This document shows positions 173-36,275 of a DNA stretch of 38,975 nt, piece by piece. Made by a program: the position numbers and the translations under genes. The number at the start of each line of letters is the position of its first letter. Position 1 is the first letter of the stretch. The DNA lies in the NCBI RefSeq assembly GCF_010672385.1, contig NZ_JAAHGT010000020.1:27717-66691 (forward strand). Reading direction: 5' to 3'. The stretch comes from Okeania sp. SIO2F4 (GTDB lineage: Bacteria > Cyanobacteriota > Cyanobacteriia > Cyanobacteriales > Microcoleaceae). A model generated the notes under the pieces. It was not told where the DNA came from, ran no database searches, and saw only the letters and a program-made list of their open reading frames with translations.

Positions 173-383
173 AAGCTAATTTAATTGTTTTATCAAAAAT
201 AGAAAATATATTCATTACTATTGCGCAATAGTTAAGCCTTAAAGTTTAAATATATTAAATTTATAGTTACGCATAAAAATATTAATTTTTATAATACTTG
301 TCAAAAAAAAGAATTCTAAGATACTTACAAAAACTTACTGGTTATTTGCTAAAATTGCTTACCAAATATCCTAATCATAGAAA

Positions 384-989
384 ATGAGCAAAATTTCTAT
401 AGGAAAGGCTGCTGAATTGCTAGGAGTAGCAGAAAGTACCCTGAGAAGATGGGAACGTGAAGGCAAAATCCAGTCAGAAAGAACCAAAAATGGACATCGC
501 CGATATGATGTAGCAACTCTTCTTGGACTTAGAGCTGGAGAACGTAAAACCATTGGTTATGCCTGTATTTCCAATTCTGAGCAAACAGCCAATTTAGATA
601 AACAAATCATGGTATTAGAAGCCTACTGTAATAATCAGGGCTGGCTAGTAGAAATCATTCGAGATTTAGGTTCAGGAATAAATTACAGAAAAAGAGGACT
701 GGTAAGGTTAATCAAAATGATCTGCTCAGAAAAAGTAGAGCGTTTAGTATTAACGAATAAAGACCGTTTGCTAAGATTTGGCGCTGAACTAATATTTACC
801 ATTTGTGAGATTTTTGGCACAGAAATTGTGATTATTAATCACTGTTCTGAATCCACAGAAGAAGAAGATTTAGATCGAGATATCTTAGAAATTATCAAAG
901 TTTTTACAGCTAGATTGTATGGTAGTCGGAGCCAAAAAAACCAAAAAATAGTGGAAAAATTGCAAGAAGCAGCTAATCAAATAAATTGA
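384..989 (+). CDS. tnpA: Orphan IS607-family serine recombinase (TnpA-like)
   Basis: 201 residues. Residues 1-45 form a MerR-type helix-turn-helix (ISIGKAAELLGVAESTLRRW ...), which in IS607 binds the element ends. Residues 57-200 are a resolvase/invertase catalytic domain. The nucleophilic serine is in YACISNSEQ, and the KDRLLRFG block carries the arginine pair of the active site. The usual YARVS is YACIS here, so the conserved arginine two residues before the catalytic serine is a cysteine. IS607 normally has tnpB overlapping the 3' end of tnpA, but nothing TnpB-like follows (990-1595). The gene is therefore an orphan: either a remnant, a standalone recombinase, or the transposase of a tnpB-less element. 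Start is ATG at 384. Confidence 0.85.
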   Translation: MSKISIGKAAELLGVAESTLRRWEREGKIQSERTKNGHRRYDVATLLGLRAGERKTIGYACISNSEQTANLDKQIMVLEAYCNNQGWLVEIIRDLGSGINYRKRGLVRLIKMICSEKVERLVLTNKDRLLRFGAELIFTICEIFGTEIVIINHCSESTEEEDLDRDILEIIKVFTARLYGSRSQKNQKIVEKLQEAANQIN

Positions 990-1595
990 TATGTAAACAT
1001 TTCCTGCGGAATGCTGCCAATTTATATCGCGCAGGGAAACAGCCATTAGCTTTTAGCTGTCAGCTATTAATTTACTATCTTTGAAAGAGGAAGTAAAATT
1101 GAAAGATTGAGCAAAAATTAAAAGTTACTATCAAAACAGATTAGCTAATCTTCCTCAGAAATTAAAAAGCTGTTAGTGCATTACGATCTAGAAAAAGCTA
1201 CCTACTGATACCTGAATCCTGACATTGATAGTTACTAAGTCAAAAAATAAAAGTAATATAAGTCATGTAAATCAACTTGCCAAGTTATATCATGTCCGGA
1301 TAATTAGTGATAAAAAAAACTTTCTCCTTTTCCTCCTCTTTATTCTTTCTTGCTTCTTTCTTCCCTCCTGACTCCTGACTCTTGACTCCTGACTCCTCCG
1401 TCGTTTATTTATAAGTATTCAACCGGACATGATATTACACACTTTATAGCTTGGAGGAGAATATTTTTTTGCTTTTATGAATTAGCTTAATGTAATATGA
1501 AACTAATTTACTATCCAGCAATTTTTCTCAAGTGAAAAGTCAATAAATGCTCAATTAACTGATAAAATCTTGAAGGTTTTTCTAAATTTTGATAA
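990..1595. other. 606-bp spacer with an inverted-repeat element
   Basis: No coding signal. It contains a perfect 13-bp inverted repeat, ATATCATGTCCGG at 1287-1299 and CCGGACATGATAT at 1423-1435. The repeat encloses a pyrimidine-rich strand with heptamer-like GACTCCT repeats (about 1368-1400). Related ends occur at 19191-19438, so this looks like a small non-autonomous element. The rest is AT-rich leader of plsX with no promoter I can defend. Confidence 0.5.
1287..1435. repeat. Inverted-repeat element with ATATCATGTCCGG ends
   Basis: Perfect 13-bp terminal inverted repeats enclose about 123 bp of C/T-rich sequence. A diverged relative with ends TATGATGTCCGG and CCAGACATGATATA lies at 19191-19438. 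No open frame lies between the ends. No clear target duplication was found, so transposition is inferred only from recurrence. Confidence 0.45.
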
Positions 1596-2633
1596 ATGGG
1601 AATAATACCTACACGAATCGCAATCGACGCTATGGGTGGGGACCATGCCCCATCAGAAATTGTTGAGGGAGCACTCAAAGCCCAAGAAGCTTATGGTGTC
1701 AAAGTATTGCTAGTTGGCGACCCTCAGCAAATTAAAGCCTGTATACATCACAAATCAAACCAACCTCTGCCAGAAATAGTTCCTGCTGAGGACATAGTAG
1801 AAATGCACGAAGAACCTTTGACTGCCATTAGGCGCAAGTCCAAGGCATCTATTAATGTAGCTATGAACTTAGTAAAGGAGAAAGAAGCAGATGCTGTAGT
1901 TTCCGCAGGTCATTCAGGAGCTGCAATGGCTTCCGCTTTGCTGCGTCTGGGAAGAATACCAGGAATAGATCGCCCTGCAATTGGGGCAGTTTTACCTACT
2001 ATGATTAAGAAAAAACCAGTCCTGATTCTGGATGTGGGAGCGAATGTGGACTGTCGCCCCAAATATTTAGAGCAGTTTGCAGTGATGGGGACAATTTATA
2101 GTGAATATGTTTTGAGGACTTCCGACCCAAAAGTGGGACTACTTAATATTGGGGAAGAGCCATCAAAAGGAAATGATTTGGCAGTACGAACTCACCAAAT
2201 ATTGCAAGAAAATAGTCAAATCAAATTTATCGGTAATGCAGAAGGTCGTGATGTTTTATCTGGTGAATTTGATGTAATAGTTTGTGATGGTTTTGCAGGT
2301 AATGTGTTATTAAAGTTTGCGGAGGCAGTGGGTGATGCTGTACTGCAAATGATGAGGGAAGAATTGACACCTGGTCTGAGTGGGAAAATAGGTACTGCAA
2401 TATTACGACCTAATTTAAAACGTATGAAACAAAGAATAGACCATGTAGAACATGGAGGGGGATTATTATTAGGAGTAGGAGGAATTTGTATTATTAGTCA
2501 TGGTTCTTCTAAAGCACCAGCTATATATAATGCGGTTCGTTCAGCAAAAGAAGCTGTTGAAAATAGAGTGCTGGAACGAATTAATTCTAAGTATTTACCA
2601 GAAAGTAAAAAGTCAATAGTTAGTAATCAGTAG
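1596..2633 (+). CDS. plsX: Phosphate acyltransferase PlsX
   Basis: PlsX makes acyl-phosphate from acyl-ACP, the first committed step toward phosphatidic acid in bacteria. The acyl-phosphate feeds PlsY, and PlsC then acts on the lysophosphatidate. The 345-residue protein has the hallmark AIDAMGGDHAP near residues 9-19, the VSAGHSGAAMASA segment, and the C-terminal HVEHGGGLLLGVGG and ISHGSS blocks, so it is full length. ATG at 1596 matches the usual cyanobacterial N-terminus (MG...RIAIDAMGG). It leads a set with fabH, fabD and plsC, a known cyanobacterial arrangement, although gaps of 0.5-1.3 kb here replace the usual short spacers. Confidence 0.96.
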   Translation: MGIIPTRIAIDAMGGDHAPSEIVEGALKAQEAYGVKVLLVGDPQQIKACIHHKSNQPLPEIVPAEDIVEMHEEPLTAIRRKSKASINVAMNLVKEKEADAVVSAGHSGAAMASALLRLGRIPGIDRPAIGAVLPTMIKKKPVLILDVGANVDCRPKYLEQFAVMGTIYSEYVLRTSDPKVGLLNIGEEPSKGNDLAVRTHQILQENSQIKFIGNAEGRDVLSGEFDVIVCDGFAGNVLLKFAEAVGDAVLQMMREELTPGLSGKIGTAILRPNLKRMKQRIDHVEHGGGLLLGVGGICIISHGSSKAPAIYNAVRSAKEAVENRVLERINSKYLPESKKSIVSNQ

Positions 2634-3241
2634 TGCTTCTGTTATAGCGATTACCTGATTTCTGGCAACCATCAAAAGCTTGACTCAAAAGCAAAACCAT
2701 TTTTGCATAATTTTTGACTTTTCATTATTCAATTGAAAAAGACGAGGATTTAGAATTCAACTGTTTCAATTTTATTCAGTTTATTTCTTAAGATATAGCG
2801 GTTCTCATATTAATGAGATACTGTATTTTTTTCCCTTTATATGTTACATCTTCCCTGTTACCTAAAATTAAAAAATTGTCTACATCATTGATTTGAGAAA
2901 AGCTAAGTACCCGGTAAAGAGTCAAGTGAACTTGAAATTAGCAGAATTCAGGAGTTAGAATTAAGAATGATTTTGGAAAAATTACTTCTGACAGTAATCT
3001 GATATTTAATTTTTCCTATTTACTCCTACTTATATAAGTTATAATGATTATTTAGTAAACTTGACTCTGTAGTTTTCCTTGTTAGGATATTGCTAATAAT
3101 TTTGCTGTTTTAAACAAGCTTTTATAAGTCGTGAGGGTAAACAAAACAAGAAAATTTGCAGTACTAAGGTATAGATTCAGGAAAGATTGATGAAAAGCAG
3201 TAAGTAATACTAGAAAACAAGTAATAATTAAAAACTGACAG
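2634..3241 (+). other. 608-bp spacer between plsX and fabH
   Basis: AT-rich, no frame resembling a protein and no clear element ends. Scattered fragments such as GAATTCAGGAGTTAG resemble the short repeats elsewhere in the window. The distance suggests fabH may need its own promoter, but none is evident. Confidence 0.5.
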
Positions 3242-4252
3242 ATGACAAATATAGGTATTTCCATAACCGGAAGCGGTTCCGCCACACCAAAAGTATCTCT
3301 AGATAATCAAAAATTATCCCAAATAGTAGAGACTTCTGACGAATGGATCAGTTCTCGTACTGGGATTAGTAAGCGACAACTGGCAGATACAACAGAATCA
3401 TTATGTAGCCTCGCAACTCAAGCGTCTCTAGCAGCTCTTGACCAAGCAAATATTACTCCTGCAGATATTTACCTGATTATTCTGGCTACATCTAGTCCAG
3501 ATGATTTATTTGGCACTGCTAGTCAAATTCAAGGGGAGTTGGGGGCTACAAAAGCAGTCGCCTTTGACCTGACTGCAGCTTGTTCTGGTTTTGTATTTGG
3601 CCTAGTTACAGGAGCGCAGTTTATCCGTAATGGAGTTTATCAAAATGTCTTATTAATTGGGGCAGATATTCTCTCACGTTGGGTAGACTGGGAAGACCGA
3701 ACCACCTGTGTTTTATTTGGAGATGGAGCAGGTGCAGTGATTTTGCAAGCTTCAGAAAGCGATCGCCTCCTGGGTTTTGAACTTCGCAGTGATGGTAGTC
3801 AAAATGGCTGTTTAAATCTTTCTTACCAACCCCAAGCAAAGGAAATAATTGAGGGAGTAACTGTTAGTCAAGGTACTTATCAACCAATAAGTATGAATGG
3901 TAAAGAAGTCTATCGTTTTGCCGTACAAAAAGTACCAGAAGTGATAGAAAAAACTCTGTTTAGAGCTGATATTGGTGTGGATAAAATTGACTGGTTGTTA
4001 TTACATCAAGCTAACCAAAGAATAATTGATGCTGTTGCTAATAGACTGAAAATTCCCTCGGAAAAAGTTATTAGTAATCTTAGTAATTATGGCAATACTT
4101 CTGCAGCTTCTATACCTCTAGCTTTAGATGAAGCTGTTAGAAAAGGTAAGGTTAAATCAGGGGATATTATTGCTGCCTCTGGTTTTGGAGCTGGATTAAC
4201 TTGGGGGGCGGTAATTTTTGAGTGGAGCGGTATTGATTTAAGTCAAAAGTGA
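3242..4252 (+). CDS. fabH: 3-oxoacyl-ACP synthase III FabH
   Basis: FabH condenses acetyl-CoA with malonyl-ACP to start fatty-acid synthesis. The 336-residue protein carries the complete Cys-His-Asn triad: C114 in TAACSGF, H255 in LLHQANQR and N285 in SNYGNTSAASIPLAL. The N-terminal ETSDEWISSRTGISKRQ segment that defines the CoA-binding entrance is present, as is the C-terminal GFGAGLTWG loop. Length and start (ATG, MTNIGISITGSGSATP) match cyanobacterial FabH. It sits between plsX and fabD on the same strand. Confidence 0.97.
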   Translation: MTNIGISITGSGSATPKVSLDNQKLSQIVETSDEWISSRTGISKRQLADTTESLCSLATQASLAALDQANITPADIYLIILATSSPDDLFGTASQIQGELGATKAVAFDLTAACSGFVFGLVTGAQFIRNGVYQNVLLIGADILSRWVDWEDRTTCVLFGDGAGAVILQASESDRLLGFELRSDGSQNGCLNLSYQPQAKEIIEGVTVSQGTYQPISMNGKEVYRFAVQKVPEVIEKTLFRADIGVDKIDWLLLHQANQRIIDAVANRLKIPSEKVISNLSNYGNTSAASIPLALDEAVRKGKVKSGDIIAASGFGAGLTWGAVIFEWSGIDLSQK

Positions 4253-10427: not shown

Positions 10428-10746
10428 CGGGACTGGCGCGATTCGAACGCGCGACCTAGCGCTTCAGATTTGTGTGAGTTTCCCCACTCTCTGGACTATC
10501 CCTTCACCATAGCTCTCATAGCTTTAGGTGGTGGCCTAACGCTTAAGGATAATTTTAATTACTCCTTAAAACTCTAGTCTCTGCACCTTCTTTACCCATA
10601 ATCAGGTAAAGCTTGGCTCAAGATTACCTTATCTGTATAAAAGACTTAGGCTTCCTTGAGTTTGACCACATTCACTCACGGAGTTTCCTCACATGGTGCC
10701 CGATATTTCAGGAGGCGCTTGCTCTATCCATCTGAGCCACAGCCCC
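10428..10746 (-). tRNA. tRNA-Arg(CCU), split by a group I intron
   Basis: On the minus strand the 5' exon is 10746-10710 and the 3' exon 10464-10428, together 74 nt. Acceptor GGGGCTG pairs with CAGTCCC, the D stem is GCTC/GAGC, the anticodon stem AGCGC/GCGCT, and the T arm GCGCG-TTCGAAT-CGCGC. Loop positions 32-38 read CTCCTAA, giving anticodon CCU for arginine (AGG codons). The discriminator is G and CCA is not encoded. The intron sits directly after the anticodon, between positions 36 and 37. The exons fold only when the intron is removed, so the gene needs splicing. Confidence 0.93.
10465..10709 (-). ncRNA. Group I intron in tRNA-Arg(CCU)
   Basis: A 245-nt self-splicing candidate. The 5' splice site follows a U (the T of CCT) and the last intron base is G, as group I chemistry requires. 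Core elements in order on the minus strand are a P3/P4-like CTCAAGGAAGCCTAAG, a P6-side GGTAATCTTGAGCC, P7 5' strand with guanosine-binding site GTGCAGAGACTAGA, and P7 3' strand AAGGGATAGTCCAG. The length leaves no room for a homing endonuclease. Group I introns in tRNA-Arg(CCU) are known from some bacteria, including cyanobacteria. Self-splicing is inferred from the intact core. Confidence 0.88.
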
Positions 10747-11106
10747 ATTTATGGCTACAAGTCAGAAGTCAGAAGTCAGAAGTCAGAAGTAATCTCTGAT
10801 TATATATCTTAACCTCTGCTTTGACTGCTATAACCTCTAGCTTACAGAGCTTACAAAAAAAGCATTAGCAGTTAAGAATGCTTTTTATTTGATATACTCC
10901 CGACGTTGCGCCTACGCGAAAACGAGGGATTCTTCAGCCTGAAAAATTTGGCTGCTGTTTATACAGAGATGATGCTCTACCCCTGTTTTGATAATAATAT
11001 ATCATATTCTGGCTTTCGACACTGAATTGAAAATTACAGCGCGGGACTTCTTGAGAGGAGTGTTAAATATGGTAAAATCCTACTATATACAGGATTTTAA
11101 GATTAA
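10747..11106. other. 360-bp spacer upstream of tRNA-Arg
   Basis: AGTCAGA heptamers occur just after the tRNA (about 10758-10790). A hairpin with flanking T/A runs follows at 10857-10886. Near 10900-10945 a fragment with CTCCCGACG ... GAGGGATTCTT resembles the hairpin of a tnpB-element right end. No gene is seen: the frame at 10988-11179 runs through the MITE and has no family resemblance. Confidence 0.45.
10857..10886. terminator. Bidirectional hairpin terminator candidate
   Basis: AAAAAGCATT (10857-10866) and AATGCTTTTT (10877-10886) form a perfect 10-bp stem with a 10-nt loop and A/T runs on both sides. Only chlP (ends at 11286) points toward it from the right, so it may be the distal terminator of chlP, now separated from it by a MITE insertion. 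Confidence 0.6.
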
Positions 11107-25334: not shown

Positions 25335-27981
25335 CCCCTATTTTCTCCTGAGTCCTTAGTCCTGACCCCTGATTCCCATTACCATTACTATTTAATTCTC
25401 CACCATAATAAGCATTAGTTAACAACTGCTTAATATCATTAATCAAAGGATAACGAGGGTTGGAACCCGTACATTGGTCATCAAAAGCTTGGTCTGCTAA
25501 ATCATCCAACTTGGCAAAAAATTCTGCCTCACTCACTGAAACCGCATCCTTTATTCCCTTGGGAATACCTACTTTACTCTTCAATTCTTCAATAGCAGCA
25601 ATTAACAAATCTACCTTTTCATCCTCAGTTTCTCCACCAAGTTCCAAATAATCAGCAATTTGAGAATAACGCCATTTAGCATTAGGATATCTATACTGAG
25701 AGAAAGTAGCTTGTTTGAATGGCGCATCGGTAGCGTTGTAACGAATAATATGAGAAATCATCAACGCATTTGCCAAACCGTGGGGAACATGAAAAATAGC
25801 TCCTAACTGGTGAGCAATGGAATGGCAAATACCCAAAAAACTGTTAGCAAAAGCCATACCTGCAATAGTTGCAGCGTAGTGCATTTTTTCTCGTGCTTTG
25901 GGGTCTTTAGCACCATTGTCATAAGCAGAAGGCAGATATTTAAAAATTAATCCAATAGCTTTCAAAGCCAGACCATTAGTATATTCGGAAGCTAAAACAG
26001 AAACATAAGCTTCCACTGCATGAGTCAAAGCATCTATTCCACCAAAAGCAGTCAAACCTTTTGGCATATTTAACACCAACTCCGGATCGACTATTGCCAT
26101 ACTAGGAGTCAAAGCATAATCTGCCAGAGGATACTTAATATTATTCTGGCGGTCAGTCACCACAGCAAAAGGCGTAACTTCTGAACCTGTACCGGAAGTT
26201 GTAGGTACTGCCACCAAAATAGCCTTCTCTCCCAAAGGTGGTAACTCATAAACCCGTTTGCGGATATCCATAAACCGCATTGCCAAACCTTCAAACTCAA
26301 TTTCTGGATGCTCGTACATCAACCACATAATTTTGGCAGCATCCATAGGCGAACCACCACCAATAGCAATAATCACATCAGGATTAAACTTTCGCATCAT
26401 ATCCAAACCCCGGTTAACAGTATCCAGGGAAGGATCGGGTTCCACATCATAAAAGATGTCATATTTAACCCCAAGTTCATCCAGCACATTTTCTAAACCG
26501 CGAGTCATCCCAAGTTCGTATATGGGTTTATCAGTGACAACAAACGCCCGTTGTTTACCTGCCAACTCTCGCATGGCAGTAGGTAAAGCTCCATATTTAA
26601 AGTAAATTTTGGGGGGAACGCGGAACCACAACATATTTTCTCGACGTTCTGCCACTGTTTTAATATTGAGCAGATGGTGAGGTTCAACGTTTTCACTAAC
26701 GGAGTTACCCCCCCAAGTTCCACAACCAAGAGTTAGGGAAGGGTCAAGGCGGAAATTATAGATATCGCCGATCGCTCCTTGGGAAGAAGGGGTATTAATC
26801 AAAACTCTGGCTGTTTCGACTGTATCTTCAAATCGTTTAATATGATCTGTATTAGCAGGGGAAGTATATAGAGCTGCCGTATGTCCGCGTCCGCCAAATT
26901 CGACTAAACTTTCTGCTTTGTCTACAGCTTCCTCAAAGCTACTTGCATGATACATTGCCAAAATGGGAGAGAGTTTTTCATGGGCAAAGGGTTCTTGTTT
27001 ATTGACATCTTCCACTTCACCAATAATTACTCTGGTTTTTTCTGGGATGGAGAAACCTGCCATTTCGGCAATTTTTTGCACTGGTTGACCGACAATTTCT
27101 GCATTCAACCGTCCGTTGACAATAATTTTGCTGCGCAGTTTGTCTTTTTCTTCTGGAGTTAAGAAGTGAGCACCTCGGTCGATAAATTCTTGTCTGACTG
27201 TATCATAAACACTATCAACCACAACGACTGATTGTTCGCTAGCGCAAATCATCCCATTATCAAAGGTTTTACTAAGGATAATTGAAGAGACTGCCATTTT
27301 AATATCGGCAGTTTCATCAATCAAAGCTGGAGTATTACCAGCACCAACTCCTAGAGATGGATGACCGGAGGAGTAAGCAGCTTTAACCATTCCCGGTCCA
27401 CCAGTAGCTAGAATGAGTTTAATATCTGGATGTTGCATCAGTTGTTGAGATAGGGGAAGTGTTGGTTCATCTATCCAACCGATAATTTGTTCTGGTGCCC
27501 CTGCTGCAACTGCTGCTTCGAGAACTACTCTAGCTGCTTCGCAGGTACATTTTTTGGCTCTGGGGTGAGGAGAAAATATAATTGCGTTACGAGTTTTGAG
27601 ACTTATTAATGATTTAAAAATTGCTGTTGAGGTAGGATTAGTTGTGGGAACTATTCCGGCAAGAATTCCTACTGGTTCGGCAATTTTTTGAAAGCCAAAA
27701 GATTTGTCTTCTGCGATAACTCCACAGGTTTTTTCGCCTTTATATTTGTTATAGATTATTTCTGAGGCAAAGTGATTTTTAATTACTTTGTCTTCTACTA
27801 ATCCCATGCCTGTTTCTGTTGCTGCCATTTTTGCTAGGGGAATTCTAGCTGCGTTGGCTGCTAGGGCTGCTTTTTTGAATATGTAGTCTACTTGTTCTTG
27901 AGTATAAGTGGCGTATTTTTCTTGGGCTAGTTTGACTTTCTGTATGAGCTCTTCTAGTTCATGCTCGTTTGTTACTTTCAT
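25324..27981 (-). CDS. adhE: Bifunctional aldehyde-alcohol dehydrogenase AdhE
   Basis: AdhE reduces acetyl-CoA to acetaldehyde and then ethanol with NADH, serving fermentation in the dark or without oxygen. The 885-residue protein has an N-terminal CoA-acylating aldehyde dehydrogenase (about 1-440), with VGILAGIVPTTNPTSTA, GVGAGNTPALID, and the catalytic C246 in DNGMICASEQ. The C-terminal iron alcohol dehydrogenase (about 455-865) has the GGGSPMDAAK nucleotide site, GTGSEVTPFAV, and the metal-binding histidines of GICHSIAHQLGAIFHVPHGLANAL. Length is normal. The final ~25 residues are low-complexity (NSNGNGNQGSG) and the last codons come from a repeat. Together with HoxYH it suggests a fermentative redox role, although the genes are not an operon. 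Confidence 0.97.
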   Translation of the reverse strand: MKVTNEHELEELIQKVKLAQEKYATYTQEQVDYIFKKAALAANAARIPLAKMAATETGMGLVEDKVIKNHFASEIIYNKYKGEKTCGVIAEDKSFGFQKIAEPVGILAGIVPTTNPTSTAIFKSLISLKTRNAIIFSPHPRAKKCTCEAARVVLEAAVAAGAPEQIIGWIDEPTLPLSQQLMQHPDIKLILATGGPGMVKAAYSSGHPSLGVGAGNTPALIDETADIKMAVSSIILSKTFDNGMICASEQSVVVVDSVYDTVRQEFIDRGAHFLTPEEKDKLRSKIIVNGRLNAEIVGQPVQKIAEMAGFSIPEKTRVIIGEVEDVNKQEPFAHEKLSPILAMYHASSFEEAVDKAESLVEFGGRGHTAALYTSPANTDHIKRFEDTVETARVLINTPSSQGAIGDIYNFRLDPSLTLGCGTWGGNSVSENVEPHHLLNIKTVAERRENMLWFRVPPKIYFKYGALPTAMRELAGKQRAFVVTDKPIYELGMTRGLENVLDELGVKYDIFYDVEPDPSLDTVNRGLDMMRKFNPDVIIAIGGGSPMDAAKIMWLMYEHPEIEFEGLAMRFMDIRKRVYELPPLGEKAILVAVPTTSGTGSEVTPFAVVTDRQNNIKYPLADYALTPSMAIVDPELVLNMPKGLTAFGGIDALTHAVEAYVSVLASEYTNGLALKAIGLIFKYLPSAYDNGAKDPKAREKMHYAATIAGMAFANSFLGICHSIAHQLGAIFHVPHGLANALMISHIIRYNATDAPFKQATFSQYRYPNAKWRYSQIADYLELGGETEDEKVDLLIAAIEELKSKVGIPKGIKDAVSVSEAEFFAKLDDLADQAFDDQCTGSNPRYPLINDIKQLLTNAYYGGELNSNGNGNQGSGLRTQEKIGVIN

Positions 27982-31702: not shown

Positions 31703-32770
31703 TTGGTAGCAAATATTGACGTATTTCATATTAGTTTGGCGGATAGAAAATTGAAGTATAACAAGCTAAAACAACTAATTACCAGTGATACTTTTGCTTA
31801 TATATTGAAGAGATTATTACAAGCAATCTTGACTTTATTCCTAGCATCTGCTCTTTGTTTTGCTGTAATTCAGTTGGCTCCAGGTAGTTATTTAGATACT
31901 CTAAGTCAAAATCCCCAAATTTCTCAAGAAACTATTCAACAACTTGAGCAACAATTTGGGTTAGATAAGTCTCCTTTAGAACAATACTTACGTTGGTTAG
32001 GAGAAATTATTACCAGTGGAAATTTTGGTAGAAGTTTTGTTTTTCAACAACCAGTGGCGGATTTATTATGGGAGAGGATACCAGCAACTCTAATTTTATC
32101 TATTTCTTCTTTAATAATGACTTGGGCGATCGCTATTCCTTTAGGGATTATTGCTGGAGTTAATCAAAACCGTTTTTTAGACCGTTTTCTGCAATTAATT
32201 AGTTACACTGGTCAAGGTTTTCCTAGTTTTATTACTGCTCTGTTGTTATTATTTTTAGCCCAAAATATTTCTCCTTTATTACCAGTTGGAGGAATGCAAA
32301 GTATCGACTATGATGATTTCTCTTTTGTGGGTAAAGTTTTAGATATGGGTTGGCACATGATTTTACCGACAATTGCTTTAAGTATTACCAGTTTTGCTGG
32401 TTTACAGAGGTTAATGCGGGGGCAATTATTGGATGTTTTGCGACAAAATTATATTCAAACGGCGAGAGCTAAAGGTCTTCCTGAGAATCGAGTGATTTAT
32501 GTTCATGCTTTGAGAAATGCTATTAACCCTTTAGTAACATTATTGGGATTTGAATTTGCTTCATTATTAAGTGGTTCGTTTATTGCTGAATATTTCTTTA
32601 ACTGGCCTGGGTTAGGAAGTCTGATTTTAGAAGCTGTAAGAAACCAGGATTTATATTTAGTTATGGCAAGTTTAATGATGGGTGCTTTAATGTTAATTAT
32701 TGGTAATTTGTTGGCTGATTTGTTGTTGAAAGCTGTAGACCCTCGGATTAAATTAGAAAGTCTGAAGTGA
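31703..32770 (+). CDS. ABC transporter permease, DppB/OppB (peptide/nickel) type
   Basis: Membrane subunit of a peptide/nickel-class ABC importer. An N-terminal transmembrane helix (about 40-59, LLQAILTLFLASALCFAVIQ) precedes the OppB-type N-terminal block LAPGSYLDTLSQNP and QQLEQQFGLDKSPLEQYLRWL. Five more hydrophobic segments follow, and the cytoplasmic EAA loop YIQTARAKGLPENRVIYVHALRNAI (about 250-274) contacts the ATPase. The C-terminal GSFIAEYFFNWPGLGSLILEAV block is typical of the family. The start is uncertain: TTG at 31703 is the first possible, and a start closer to residue 26 would also fit. No ATPase, binding protein or DppC partner is adjacent, so the substrate is unknown. Confidence 0.9.
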   Translation: MVANIDVFHISLADRKLKYNKLKQLITSDTFAYILKRLLQAILTLFLASALCFAVIQLAPGSYLDTLSQNPQISQETIQQLEQQFGLDKSPLEQYLRWLGEIITSGNFGRSFVFQQPVADLLWERIPATLILSISSLIMTWAIAIPLGIIAGVNQNRFLDRFLQLISYTGQGFPSFITALLLLFLAQNISPLLPVGGMQSIDYDDFSFVGKVLDMGWHMILPTIALSITSFAGLQRLMRGQLLDVLRQNYIQTARAKGLPENRVIYVHALRNAINPLVTLLGFEFASLLSGSFIAEYFFNWPGLGSLILEAVRNQDLYLVMASLMMGALMLIIGNLLADLLLKAVDPRIKLESLK

Positions 32771-33158: not shown

Positions 33159-33722
33159 TTAATTAGGATTGAGCCAGTTTTCAACTTTCAAATTAGGGAT
33201 ACGGGAAAATTCACTAACATTGGCTGTAATAACTGTTAAATTTAATGTTAAAGCATGAGCAGCAATTAATAAATCATTACCTCCAATGGGAGTTCCTTGA
33301 CTTTCTAAATAAGTACGAATTTCTGCGTAATATTCCTCGATAGGATTAGCGATCGGTAGTATTTCAAGACTCTCCAAGATGATTTCCAGTTTTTCTATGA
33401 GTTTTTGAGAGTTCTTTTTTTTAGCTCCAAATTTTAATTCACAAGCGAGGATAATACTTGTACAAATTTTATTTTCTCCAACTTCTTGAATTTTGAAAAA
33501 TCTCACCGAATAATTAATAATTATTAATTAAATAATTCAGGTTAAAAGTCTCTCCTTTCCAGGTAAAAAAACTGCTAGGATATTTCCTTATATTCAATTC
33601 CGTTACGGTTTTTCTTGAGGTAATTATCAATTATCAATTATCAATTATCAATTAATGAAGCCTCTTGGGTTTTTTATCAATTCGGAAATGATATTTGTAT
33701 CTAATAAATATAAATAACTCAT
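33159..33722 (-). pseudogene. vapC: VapC-type PIN toxin gene split by a repeat insertion
   Basis: The N-terminal piece 33722-33659 reads MSYLYLLDTNIISELIKNPRG, with the first PIN aspartate D8. The C-terminal piece 33504-33159 reads RFFKIQEVGENKICTSIILACELKFG, then GTPIGGNDLLIAAHA and VITANVSEFSRIPNLKVENWL. Together they make a VapC/tRNA(fMet)-endonuclease-like PIN protein with all acidic motifs. Modular repeat copy E (33505-33658) separates them and adds in-frame stops, one at 33528-33530. The two halves are in the same reading frame. Its vapB antitoxin, expected just upstream on this strand, is absent because rbcL sequence starts 6 bp past the start codon. The toxin is therefore probably dead, which would explain survival without the antitoxin. 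Confidence 0.88.
33505..33658 (-). repeat. Modular heptamer-armed repeat, copy E, inserted in vapC
   Basis: In minus orientation it starts TCATTAATTGATAATTG, holds AACCGTAACGGAATTGAA, and ends AATTATTCGGT. It is the only copy whose insertion into a known coding sequence fixes both ends. The flanks are AACCCAAGAGGC on one side and GAGATTTTTCAAAATTC on the other. No clear target duplication is seen. Confidence 0.8.
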
Positions 33723-33727
33723 TTTGA

Positions 33728-34801
33728 TCTATTGTAGGTAACGTATTTGGTTTCAAAGCACTACGGGCGCTACGTTTGGAAGATATGCGGATTCCTGTAG
33801 CTTACTTGAAGACTTTCCAAGGTCCTCCTCACGGTATTACTGTTGAGCGTGATAAGTTAAACAAATATGGTCGTCCTTTATTAGGTTGTACTATTAAGCC
33901 TAAGTTAGGTCTATCTGCTAAGAACTACGGTAGAGCAGTTTATGAGTGCTTGCGTGGTGGTTTAGACTTCACAAAAGATGACGAAAATATTAACTCTCAA
34001 CCTTTCATGCGTTGGCGCGATCGCTTCCTGTTCGTTCAAGAAGCTATTGAAAAGGCCCAAGCTGAAACTGGTGAAATTAAAGGCCACTATCTCAATGTAA
34101 CTGCCCCCACAGTTGAACAAATGATGGAGCGTGCTGAGTTTGCAAAGGAAATTGGCACTCCAATCATCATGCACGACTACCTAACAGGTGGCTTTACTGC
34201 CAACACAACTTTGGCAAGATGGTGTCGTAGCAATGGTGTTCTATTGCACATCCACCGGGCAATGCACGCTGTAATTGACCGTCAGAAAGCCCACGGTATT
34301 CACTTCCGCGTTTTGGCTAAGTGCTTGAGAATGTCTGGTGGAGACCACCTACACTCTGGTACTGTGGTTGGTAAGCTTGAAGGTGAAAAAGGTATCACAA
34401 TGGGCTTTGTGGACCTAATGCGTGAAGACCACATCGAGCAAGACCGCGAACGTGGTATCTACTTTACTCAAGATTGGGCCTCCATGCCTGGTGTAATGCC
34501 AGTTGCTTCTGGTGGTATTCACGTTTGGCACATGCCAGCTTTGGTTGAAATCTTCGGTGATGATTCCTGCTTACAATTCGGTGGTGGTACTTTAGGCCAC
34601 CCTTGGGGTAATGCTCCTGGTGCAACAGCTAACCGTGTAGCTCTAGAAGCTTGTATCCAAGCTCGTAACGAAGGTCGTAACCTCTTCAAGGAAGGTGGCG
34701 ATGTGATTCGTGAAGCTGCTAAGTGGTCTCCTGACTTGGCCGTTGCTTGCGAACTCTGGAAAGAAATCAAGTTCGAGTTCGAGGCAATGGATACCCTCTA
34801 A
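33728..34801 (+). CDS. rbcL: Rubisco large subunit RbcL, 5'-truncated
   Basis: RbcL fixes CO2 onto ribulose-1,5-bisphosphate and normally has about 475 residues. Here homology begins at [23 protein letters not shown] (33728) and runs to the normal C-terminus: [40 protein letters not shown] (carbamylated Lys and metal ligands), [25 protein letters not shown] (loop 6), and [11 protein letters not shown]. About the first 120 residues, including the N-terminal domain that completes the active site, are missing, with an in-frame TGA at 33725-33727. Internal TTG/ATG starts (33776/33785) would give a nonfunctional ~340-residue product. rbcX and rbcS downstream are intact. A photoautotroph needs a full copy, so this is either a rearranged duplicate or an assembly chimera. 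Confidence 0.95.
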
Positions 34802-35095
34802 GTCTGTCTTTGAGATGTGAGATTTTAGATTTTAGATGGCAAGAGATGAATAGATATGTCACACTTGTCTGCTAAGAAGCTGTTTGAGAAGTACTGCATG
34901 GAACCGATCGATCCTAAAAACCTAACCCCCATGCCCCCTTCCCTACAAGGGAATGGGGTTTTCAAAGCCTCTCTCCTAAGAGGAGAGAAGTTTGGAGATA
35001 GGTTTTTATGAGTTGACAAACAGTTTCTCAGGATTGATTAAATCCTTAATCTAAAATCTAAAGTCTAACATTATAGATTCAGGCTGGGGTCAAAA
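34802..35095 (+). other. rbcL-rbcX spacer with inverted double-hairpin repeat
   Basis: 34914-35008 is a diverged, reverse-oriented copy of the double-hairpin repeat (CCTAACCCCC, CCCCTTCCCT-ACA-AGGGAATGGGG, TCTCTCCT-AAG-AGGAGAGA). TAGATTTTAGAT and AATCTAAAATCTAAAGTC short repeats flank it. The spacer may form RNA structure within the rbc transcript. Confidence 0.6.
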
Positions 35096-35476
35096 ATGGA
35101 TATTAAAAAAGTTGCGAAAGATACTGCAAAGGTACTGACGAGCTACCTGACCTATCAAGCTGTGCGGACTGTAACTGCTCAGTTACGAGAGACAAACCCT
35201 CCCTTAGCAATTTGGTTAAGTGGTTTTTCCTCAACAGGCAAAATTCAAGATGGAGAAGCTTATCTACAAGAGTTGCTCCAGGAAAATAAAGAATTAGCAT
35301 TTAGAGTGATGACCGTTCGAGAACATTTAGCAGAGGAAGTGGCTGAGTATTTACCAGAAATGCTTCGCAGTGGTATTCAGAAAGATAACATGGAACATCG
35401 CCGTCGGTATCTGGAAAAGATAACGCAACTGGAAATAGCAGACCCTAGTCTAGATCCAGAACAACAAACAGATTAG
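35096..35476 (+). CDS. rbcX: Rubisco assembly chaperone RbcX
   Basis: RbcX dimers bind the C-terminal tail of folded RbcL and assist assembly of the L8 core. The 126-residue protein matches the family throughout: MDIKKVAKDTAKVLTSYLTYQAVRTVTAQL (helix that forms the RbcL-peptide groove), ETNPPLAIWLSGFS, and the C-terminal helix VAEYLPEMLRSGIQKDNMEHRRRYLE. Start ATG 35096. Its place between rbcL and rbcS is the standard beta-cyanobacterial order rbcL-rbcX-rbcS. Confidence 0.97.
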   Translation: MDIKKVAKDTAKVLTSYLTYQAVRTVTAQLRETNPPLAIWLSGFSSTGKIQDGEAYLQELLQENKELAFRVMTVREHLAEEVAEYLPEMLRSGIQKDNMEHRRRYLEKITQLEIADPSLDPEQQTD

Positions 35477-35766
35477 CCAAGAAAATTTCCAATTCATTTT
35501 TCCCCACGGGTAAATCCGCAGGTGAGTTTCCAAAGTCCTTTTTCGTAAAAAAAGCGGTCAGCAGTCAGCAAGATTGTTTTTTTGTAAGTTTGGGGATTTC
35601 AACCCCGACTCAAAAATCCTGCTTATAGAAGAAGCACAGGATTTTAACCCAGAGCTACAAAAAGCTGTTAACGCAGTTCCTCTGCAAGAGGCTAGCTGAA
35701 TGCTAAAAGCTGATAGCCAGTTAAAAGCTTTGGAGAAATTGTACATTGATTAAACAGTAAAAAAAC
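35477..35766 (+). repeat. rbcX-rbcS spacer with hairpin-rich repeat
   Basis: About 35557-35726 is another member of the family seen at 4366-4580 and 5689-5890. It has GGTCAGCAGTCAGC, a GGGGATTTCAACCCC hairpin (35593-35607), AAATCCTGCTT ... AGCACAGGATTT pairing, CTGTTAACGCAGTTCC and GAATGCTAAAAGCTGATAGC. It lies inside the rbc operon and would be transcribed. Confidence 0.55.
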
Positions 35767-36102
35767 ATGAGAACATTACCAAAAGAGCGTCGTTACGAAA
35801 CCCTTTCCTATTTGCCTCCTCTGACTGAGATGCAAACTCGTAAACAACTTGGGTATATTCTGGATCAAGGTTTCATTGCTGGTGTAGAATTCAGTGAGTC
35901 TTCTGCACCAGAAATGCACTACTGGACTTTGTGGAAGTTACCTCTATTCCATGCCAAAACAGTTGAAGAAGTTTTAATAGAAATTGATGCTTGTCGTAGT
36001 GAAAATCCTGATTGCTTTATCCGCGTGATGGGTTTTGATAACGTGAAGCAATGTCAAGTATTGAGCTTTATTGTACACAAGCCTAATCAAAGAAGATACT
36101 AA
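35767..36102 (+). CDS. rbcS: Rubisco small subunit RbcS
   Basis: RbcS caps the RbcL octamer in form I Rubisco. The 111-residue protein has the cyanobacterial form IB pattern: [70 protein letters not shown], and the FIVHKP end. There is no carboxysomal-targeting or transit extension. It follows rbcX by 290 bp. A strong intrinsic terminator lies about 135 bp after the stop. Confidence 0.98.
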
Positions 36103-36238: not shown

Positions 36239-36275
36239 AGTGGGATAGGCAATAGTCTGTCCCACTATTTTTTTG
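36239..36275 (+). terminator. Rho-independent terminator of the rbc operon
   Basis: AGTGGGA (36239-36245) pairs with TCCCACT (36260-36266), and the hairpin is followed by ATTTTTTTG. It stands 137 bp after rbcS in the right orientation, beyond a short GGGAACACTTAAC repeat that may have lengthened the 3' UTR. Confidence 0.85.

Follow-up and report, generated by a model that had tools for sequence, protein, structure and literature searches.

The rbcL gene of Okeania sp. SIO2F4 raises a simple question: why would the large-subunit gene of Rubisco begin in mid-protein, next to a putative toxin gene? The gene lies in a window of 38,975 nucleotides (the whole stretch analyzed here; C626:27717-66691) from an assembly of 10.18 Mb in 1512 contigs that is 99.93% complete. 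Its frame (33728-34801, plus strand) opens with S-I-V-G-N-V-F-G-F, lacks its own start codon, and ends in a stop codon at 34801; its first residue is Ser-120 when numbered on the intact N-terminus encoded by contig C1432. By Pfam, the RuBisCO_large domain is complete (1-299/299), while only positions 97-120 of the 120 in RuBisCO_large_N are present. A vapC-like PIN-domain gene on the minus strand has its start codon at 33722-33720, so our coordinates bear out the preliminary description of this DNA, which had rbcL start at SIVGNVFGF, about 120 residues in and 6 bp from the vapC start codon. It was also right that the rest of the operon is intact: rbcX (35096-35476, plus strand; Pfam RbcX 1-111/111) and rbcS (35767-36102, plus strand; RuBisCO_small 1-97/97) are followed by a terminator-like hairpin at 36239-36266 (plus strand; 12 pairs and a T tail), one of two such sites found by a terminator scan, compared with a mean of 0.2 in shuffled sequences. 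The rbcL-rbcX spacer (~34873-35031) and the rbcX-rbcS spacer (~35592-35727) each hold a copy belonging to a family of interspersed repeats that recurs throughout the genome.

The missing front of rbcL is present elsewhere in the assembly. A genome-wide profile search located the full N-terminal Rubisco domain at C1432:3403-3765 and a partial one in the window. On C1432 (3821 bp), rbcL runs from an ATG at 3331 through the contig end, covering codons 1-163, with the codon for Ser-120 at 3688. The two contigs overlap: C1432:3688-3821 and window positions 33728-33861 are identical at 132 of 134 bases and are divergent upstream of them. Both differences are synonymous T/C changes (33730 and 33857), and they flank an exact overlap of 126 bp (33731-33856). 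A complete form I large subunit, with N-terminal and catalytic domains, is therefore found only across C1432 and the window combined, the 5' part corresponding to C1432:3331-3821. The rbcL regions of eight relatives were fetched, and six of them show conservation of the leader that precedes rbcL on C1432, indicating that the right-hand piece of the window continues on C1432 into its native neighbor. The argument made earlier that Rubisco cannot be missing was thus sound: the gene is there, divided between two contigs.

Searches of the genome gave no sign of another copy. Among PF00016 matches (all four candidates scored), there was no second form-I catalytic part, only the one on C626 and a distant homologue on C642, and when all candidates for the N-terminal domain were scored, one full copy was found. 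The C642 gene (4478-5239, minus strand; a frame of 380 codons) is a distant Rubisco-like gene, presumably of form IV, and was rejected as a second form-I rbcL. DNA searches agreed: the one with window positions 33500-34801 gave no second rbcL coding copy among the best 40 of 867 candidate places scored, and the one with the rbcX-rbcS region gave neither gene a second time in the best 40 of 440; the further matches listed were repeats, in addition to those from the overlaps with C1237 and C1432. The second complete rbcL that the preliminary description proposed to look for is not seen; the domain searches give a single form-I catalytic part and a single full N-terminal domain.

The left side of the junction has a second continuation as well. 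Window positions 33532-33727 match C1237:1-196 at 195 of 196 bases, and the two diverge right at 33727; an exact overlap of 126 bp (33602-33727) extends from a C/T difference at 33601 to the junction. The change-overs to C1237 (33727) and to C1432 (33728) thus sit on adjacent bases, which places the junction between the last base of the left piece and the first base of the rbcL piece. C1237 carries an intact 78-aa gene (188-424, minus strand) whose end overlaps the vapC start. Pfam puts it close to the Phd/YefM antitoxins, although its 23.9 bits fall short of the curated threshold of 29.8, and it is probably the antitoxin of the vapC-like toxin. Further along come a gene for a CHAT-domain protein and the first part of a ribonucleotide reductase gene (Pfam RNR_Alpha), which we take to be nrdJ. 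A methyltransferase label for the C1237 frames at 742-1119 and 1127-1543 (minus strand) was dropped because Pfam gave no match. The vapC-like gene is not intact either: its translation (33722-33651, minus strand) halts at a stop after 24 codons and resumes as an open reading frame at 33506-33159, the frame being split by an interspersed repeat (33505-33664) with at least 43 matches elsewhere in the genome at 74-91% identity (among the best 40 of 867 candidate places scored). The remainder of the gene (33159-33506, minus strand) matches the Pfam PIN domain (E=2.3e-13, profile 29-118/120), and the 24-codon piece by itself has no Pfam match. Beyond it lies the native left neighbor, an ABC transporter permease gene (31703-32770, plus strand; presumably dppB), assigned from a Pfam BPD_transp_1 match and gene order in relatives.

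Gene order in relatives supported both continuations. In all eight fetched relatives, from Trichodesmium, Okeania, and Hydrocoleum, 33728 is where homology to the window starts, and the order is rbcL-rbcX-rbcS, the same as in the window; the rbcL part shares 91-94% DNA identity with five congeners (in one of them, over the first 643 bases only). Of 19 other genomes, 16 carry rbcL as an open frame of 472-521 codons; of the remaining three, two gave no match and one a distant homologue only. Unlike the operon of these relatives, rbcL here is split over two contigs, and C1432 has ~320 extra bases between the leader and rbcL. These extra bases (C1432 ~2955-3310), which are absent or shorter in six relatives and of which a part resembles window positions 10889-10940 on the minus strand (81%), may represent a small mobile element. 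After rbcS, the window encodes a 589-aa protein with methyltransferase domains and then a class II aldolase; both also come after rbcS in one congener (G002), and the start of the 589-aa gene does so in G012, whereas neither gene is seen in the stretches fetched from the remaining six relatives.

On the left side, nrdJ follows dppB on the same strand at seven of the 10 closest dppB loci (86-97% protein identity); of the remaining three, the flank is short in two and, in Okeania sp. SIO3I5, full but lacking nrdJ. Across all 80 dppB loci fetched, nrdJ follows in 10, while 43, mostly from distant cyanobacteria, have ~10 kb without it and 27 have less than 9 kb of flank. By dppB, Trichodesmium sp. 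MAG_R02, Okeania sp. SIO3I5, and Hydrocoleum sp. CS-953 rank as the closest named relatives. Between dppB and nrdJ, Okeania sp. SIO1I7 has the antitoxin gene and Okeania hirsuta has the CHAT gene, and the remainder of the PIN gene adjoins dppB in Hydrocoleum sp. CS-953, suggesting that the left-hand piece of the window likewise continues on C1237 into its native neighbor. rbcL and dppB are on different contigs in 14 of the 15 other genomes carrying both, although these 14 are fragmented assemblies in which different contigs are compatible with closeness, and in the sole single-contig genome they are 1.25 Mb apart on opposite strands. In Anabaena azotica, one of the 80 dppB records, the two genes are ~7 kb apart and on opposite strands, an arrangement unlike that of the window. 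In two Trichodesmium records, the start of nrdJ matches in two pieces 2.4-2.5 kb apart (L079 14063-16889 and L083 7515-10433), which would fit an intervening intein or intron.

Because the window overlaps both C1432 and C1237, and because these alternative continuations both exist and correspond to the usual gene order of relatives, C626 is very probably an assembly chimera at 33727|33728, the headless rbcL being an artefact rather than a real feature. A chimera at 33723-33728 was one of two possibilities raised in the preliminary description, and our analysis favors it and narrows its position to a single pair of bases. The overlaps are imperfect, however, with 2 of 134 and 1 of 196 bases differing, and overlap identity alone would also be compatible with a second real allele or paralogue. 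The join itself contains no N, and the Ser codon is retained by TCT at 33728-33730; since TCT is the Ser codon at this place in three of the eight relatives, the junction is not random filler. Two other origins for the break were set aside. GATC spans the junction, as a restriction-site fill-in might leave it, yet is absent from both 30-base parental stretches, and Rfam, at the gathering threshold, detected an intron at the break in neither the window nor C1432.

The other possibility raised earlier was that rbcLXS had been duplicated, with one copy cut by a real rearrangement beside vapC and the intact copy starting on C1432. The overlap does exist in two slightly different versions (2 synonymous differences in 134 bp), as two copies would produce, but an assembly of this completeness has only one form-I catalytic part, all four candidates having been scored. 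The corresponding DNA search for rbcX and rbcS, a weaker argument given that it covers the best 40 of 440 places, points the same way. Furthermore, C1237 and the window continue the left side differently, so a duplication would have to involve both sides. We consider it highly improbable. Alternatively, a minority of the chromosomes, or a single strain, could truly carry the junction: if the population is polyploid or a mixture of strains, illegitimate recombination may have left the rbcL of some chromosomes without its first 119 codons and beside vapC, with intact Rubisco on further chromosome copies or in different cells. The coexistence of the joined and both unjoined versions in the assembly is what such a population would yield, and the sequence differences would fit more than one strain. 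However, the parental sites, TTTTGA|CAAG and TTAACC|TCCA, share no common core, and cells with this version alone would be without Rubisco. A search for the junction 28-mer with up to three mismatches, which a more diverged junction would escape, matched none of 60 other genomes of the family and only the genome itself among 61. On balance, a real minority junction seems very unlikely.

Programmed excision is known in other cyanobacteria from the DNA elements of heterocysts, and an excision element interrupting rbcL between C1432 and C626 would account for a gene divided in the assembly. But C1432 extends 134 bp beyond the break in rbcL sequence, passing through the break site, and rbcL is therefore uninterrupted there; no direct-repeat core was found at the break, and the full-length open frames in 16 of 19 relatives also speak against such an element, which we regard as having almost no likelihood.

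If C626 is a chimera, the apt/dppB/vapC-like locus would have been wrongly joined to the inside of rbcL at 33727|33728. The native arrangement most likely has the left piece running on into C1237, with the antitoxin, the CHAT protein, and the ribonucleotide reductase, and a complete rbcL that starts on C1432, preceded by its own leader, with rbcX and rbcS after it. We infer that the sample contained closely related strains and that contig ends left loose by breaks at variants may then have been misjoined. The contig ends are partly consistent with such a history. Besides the two exact overlaps of 126 bp, C1432:1-127 is identical to C1078:1-127, the two diverging thereafter; at the opposite end of C1237, 135 bases overlap with the start of C1216, with two differences and an exact run of 104 bp; and both ends of C626 have only repeat or paralogue matches of 78-86%. 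Exact overlaps thus measure 126, 126, and 127 bp at three of the six contig ends inspected, and the other three give 104 bp or no such overlap, a pattern that could come from closely related strains having been assembled in a de Bruijn graph at k=127. Chimeric contigs are a familiar product of de Bruijn graph assemblies, and the present case resembles them in that two loci meet at one base, in that both alternative continuations are on short contigs, and in that three contig ends overlap by 126 or 127 bases; it differs from them in the three further ends without an overlap of k-mer length. Our search for literature on Hydrocoleum or Trichodesmium genome assembly with SPAdes returned nothing.

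Over its whole length, C626 also contains three single Ns, at 422, 27716, and 66692, at which pieces of the contig are joined. In window numbering the last two are positions 0 and 38976, so that the window fills precisely the interval from one to the other and itself contains no N. The N at 422 cuts a psbA-like gene (Photo_RC 1-76/260), that at 27716 lies 20 bases past a complete 23S rRNA gene, and that at 66692 cuts a class II aldolase gene (1-86/183). The finding is of cautionary value only: a complete Rubisco gene looks broken in this assembly, and conclusions on gene order that cross 33727|33728 or any of the single Ns of C626 would be unsafe.

Two further features were seen, one in the window and one on C1432. 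ARAGORN reported no tRNA within the window, which has a group I intron at 10472-10722 (minus strand; Rfam RF00028, 64.2 bits) that is flanked at both ends by tRNA-like sequence. On C1432, 5' of rbcL, a gene with UPF0004, Radical_SAM, and TRAM domains, which we assume to be MiaB-like (651-2005, minus strand), is broken into two frames at 1229/1247.
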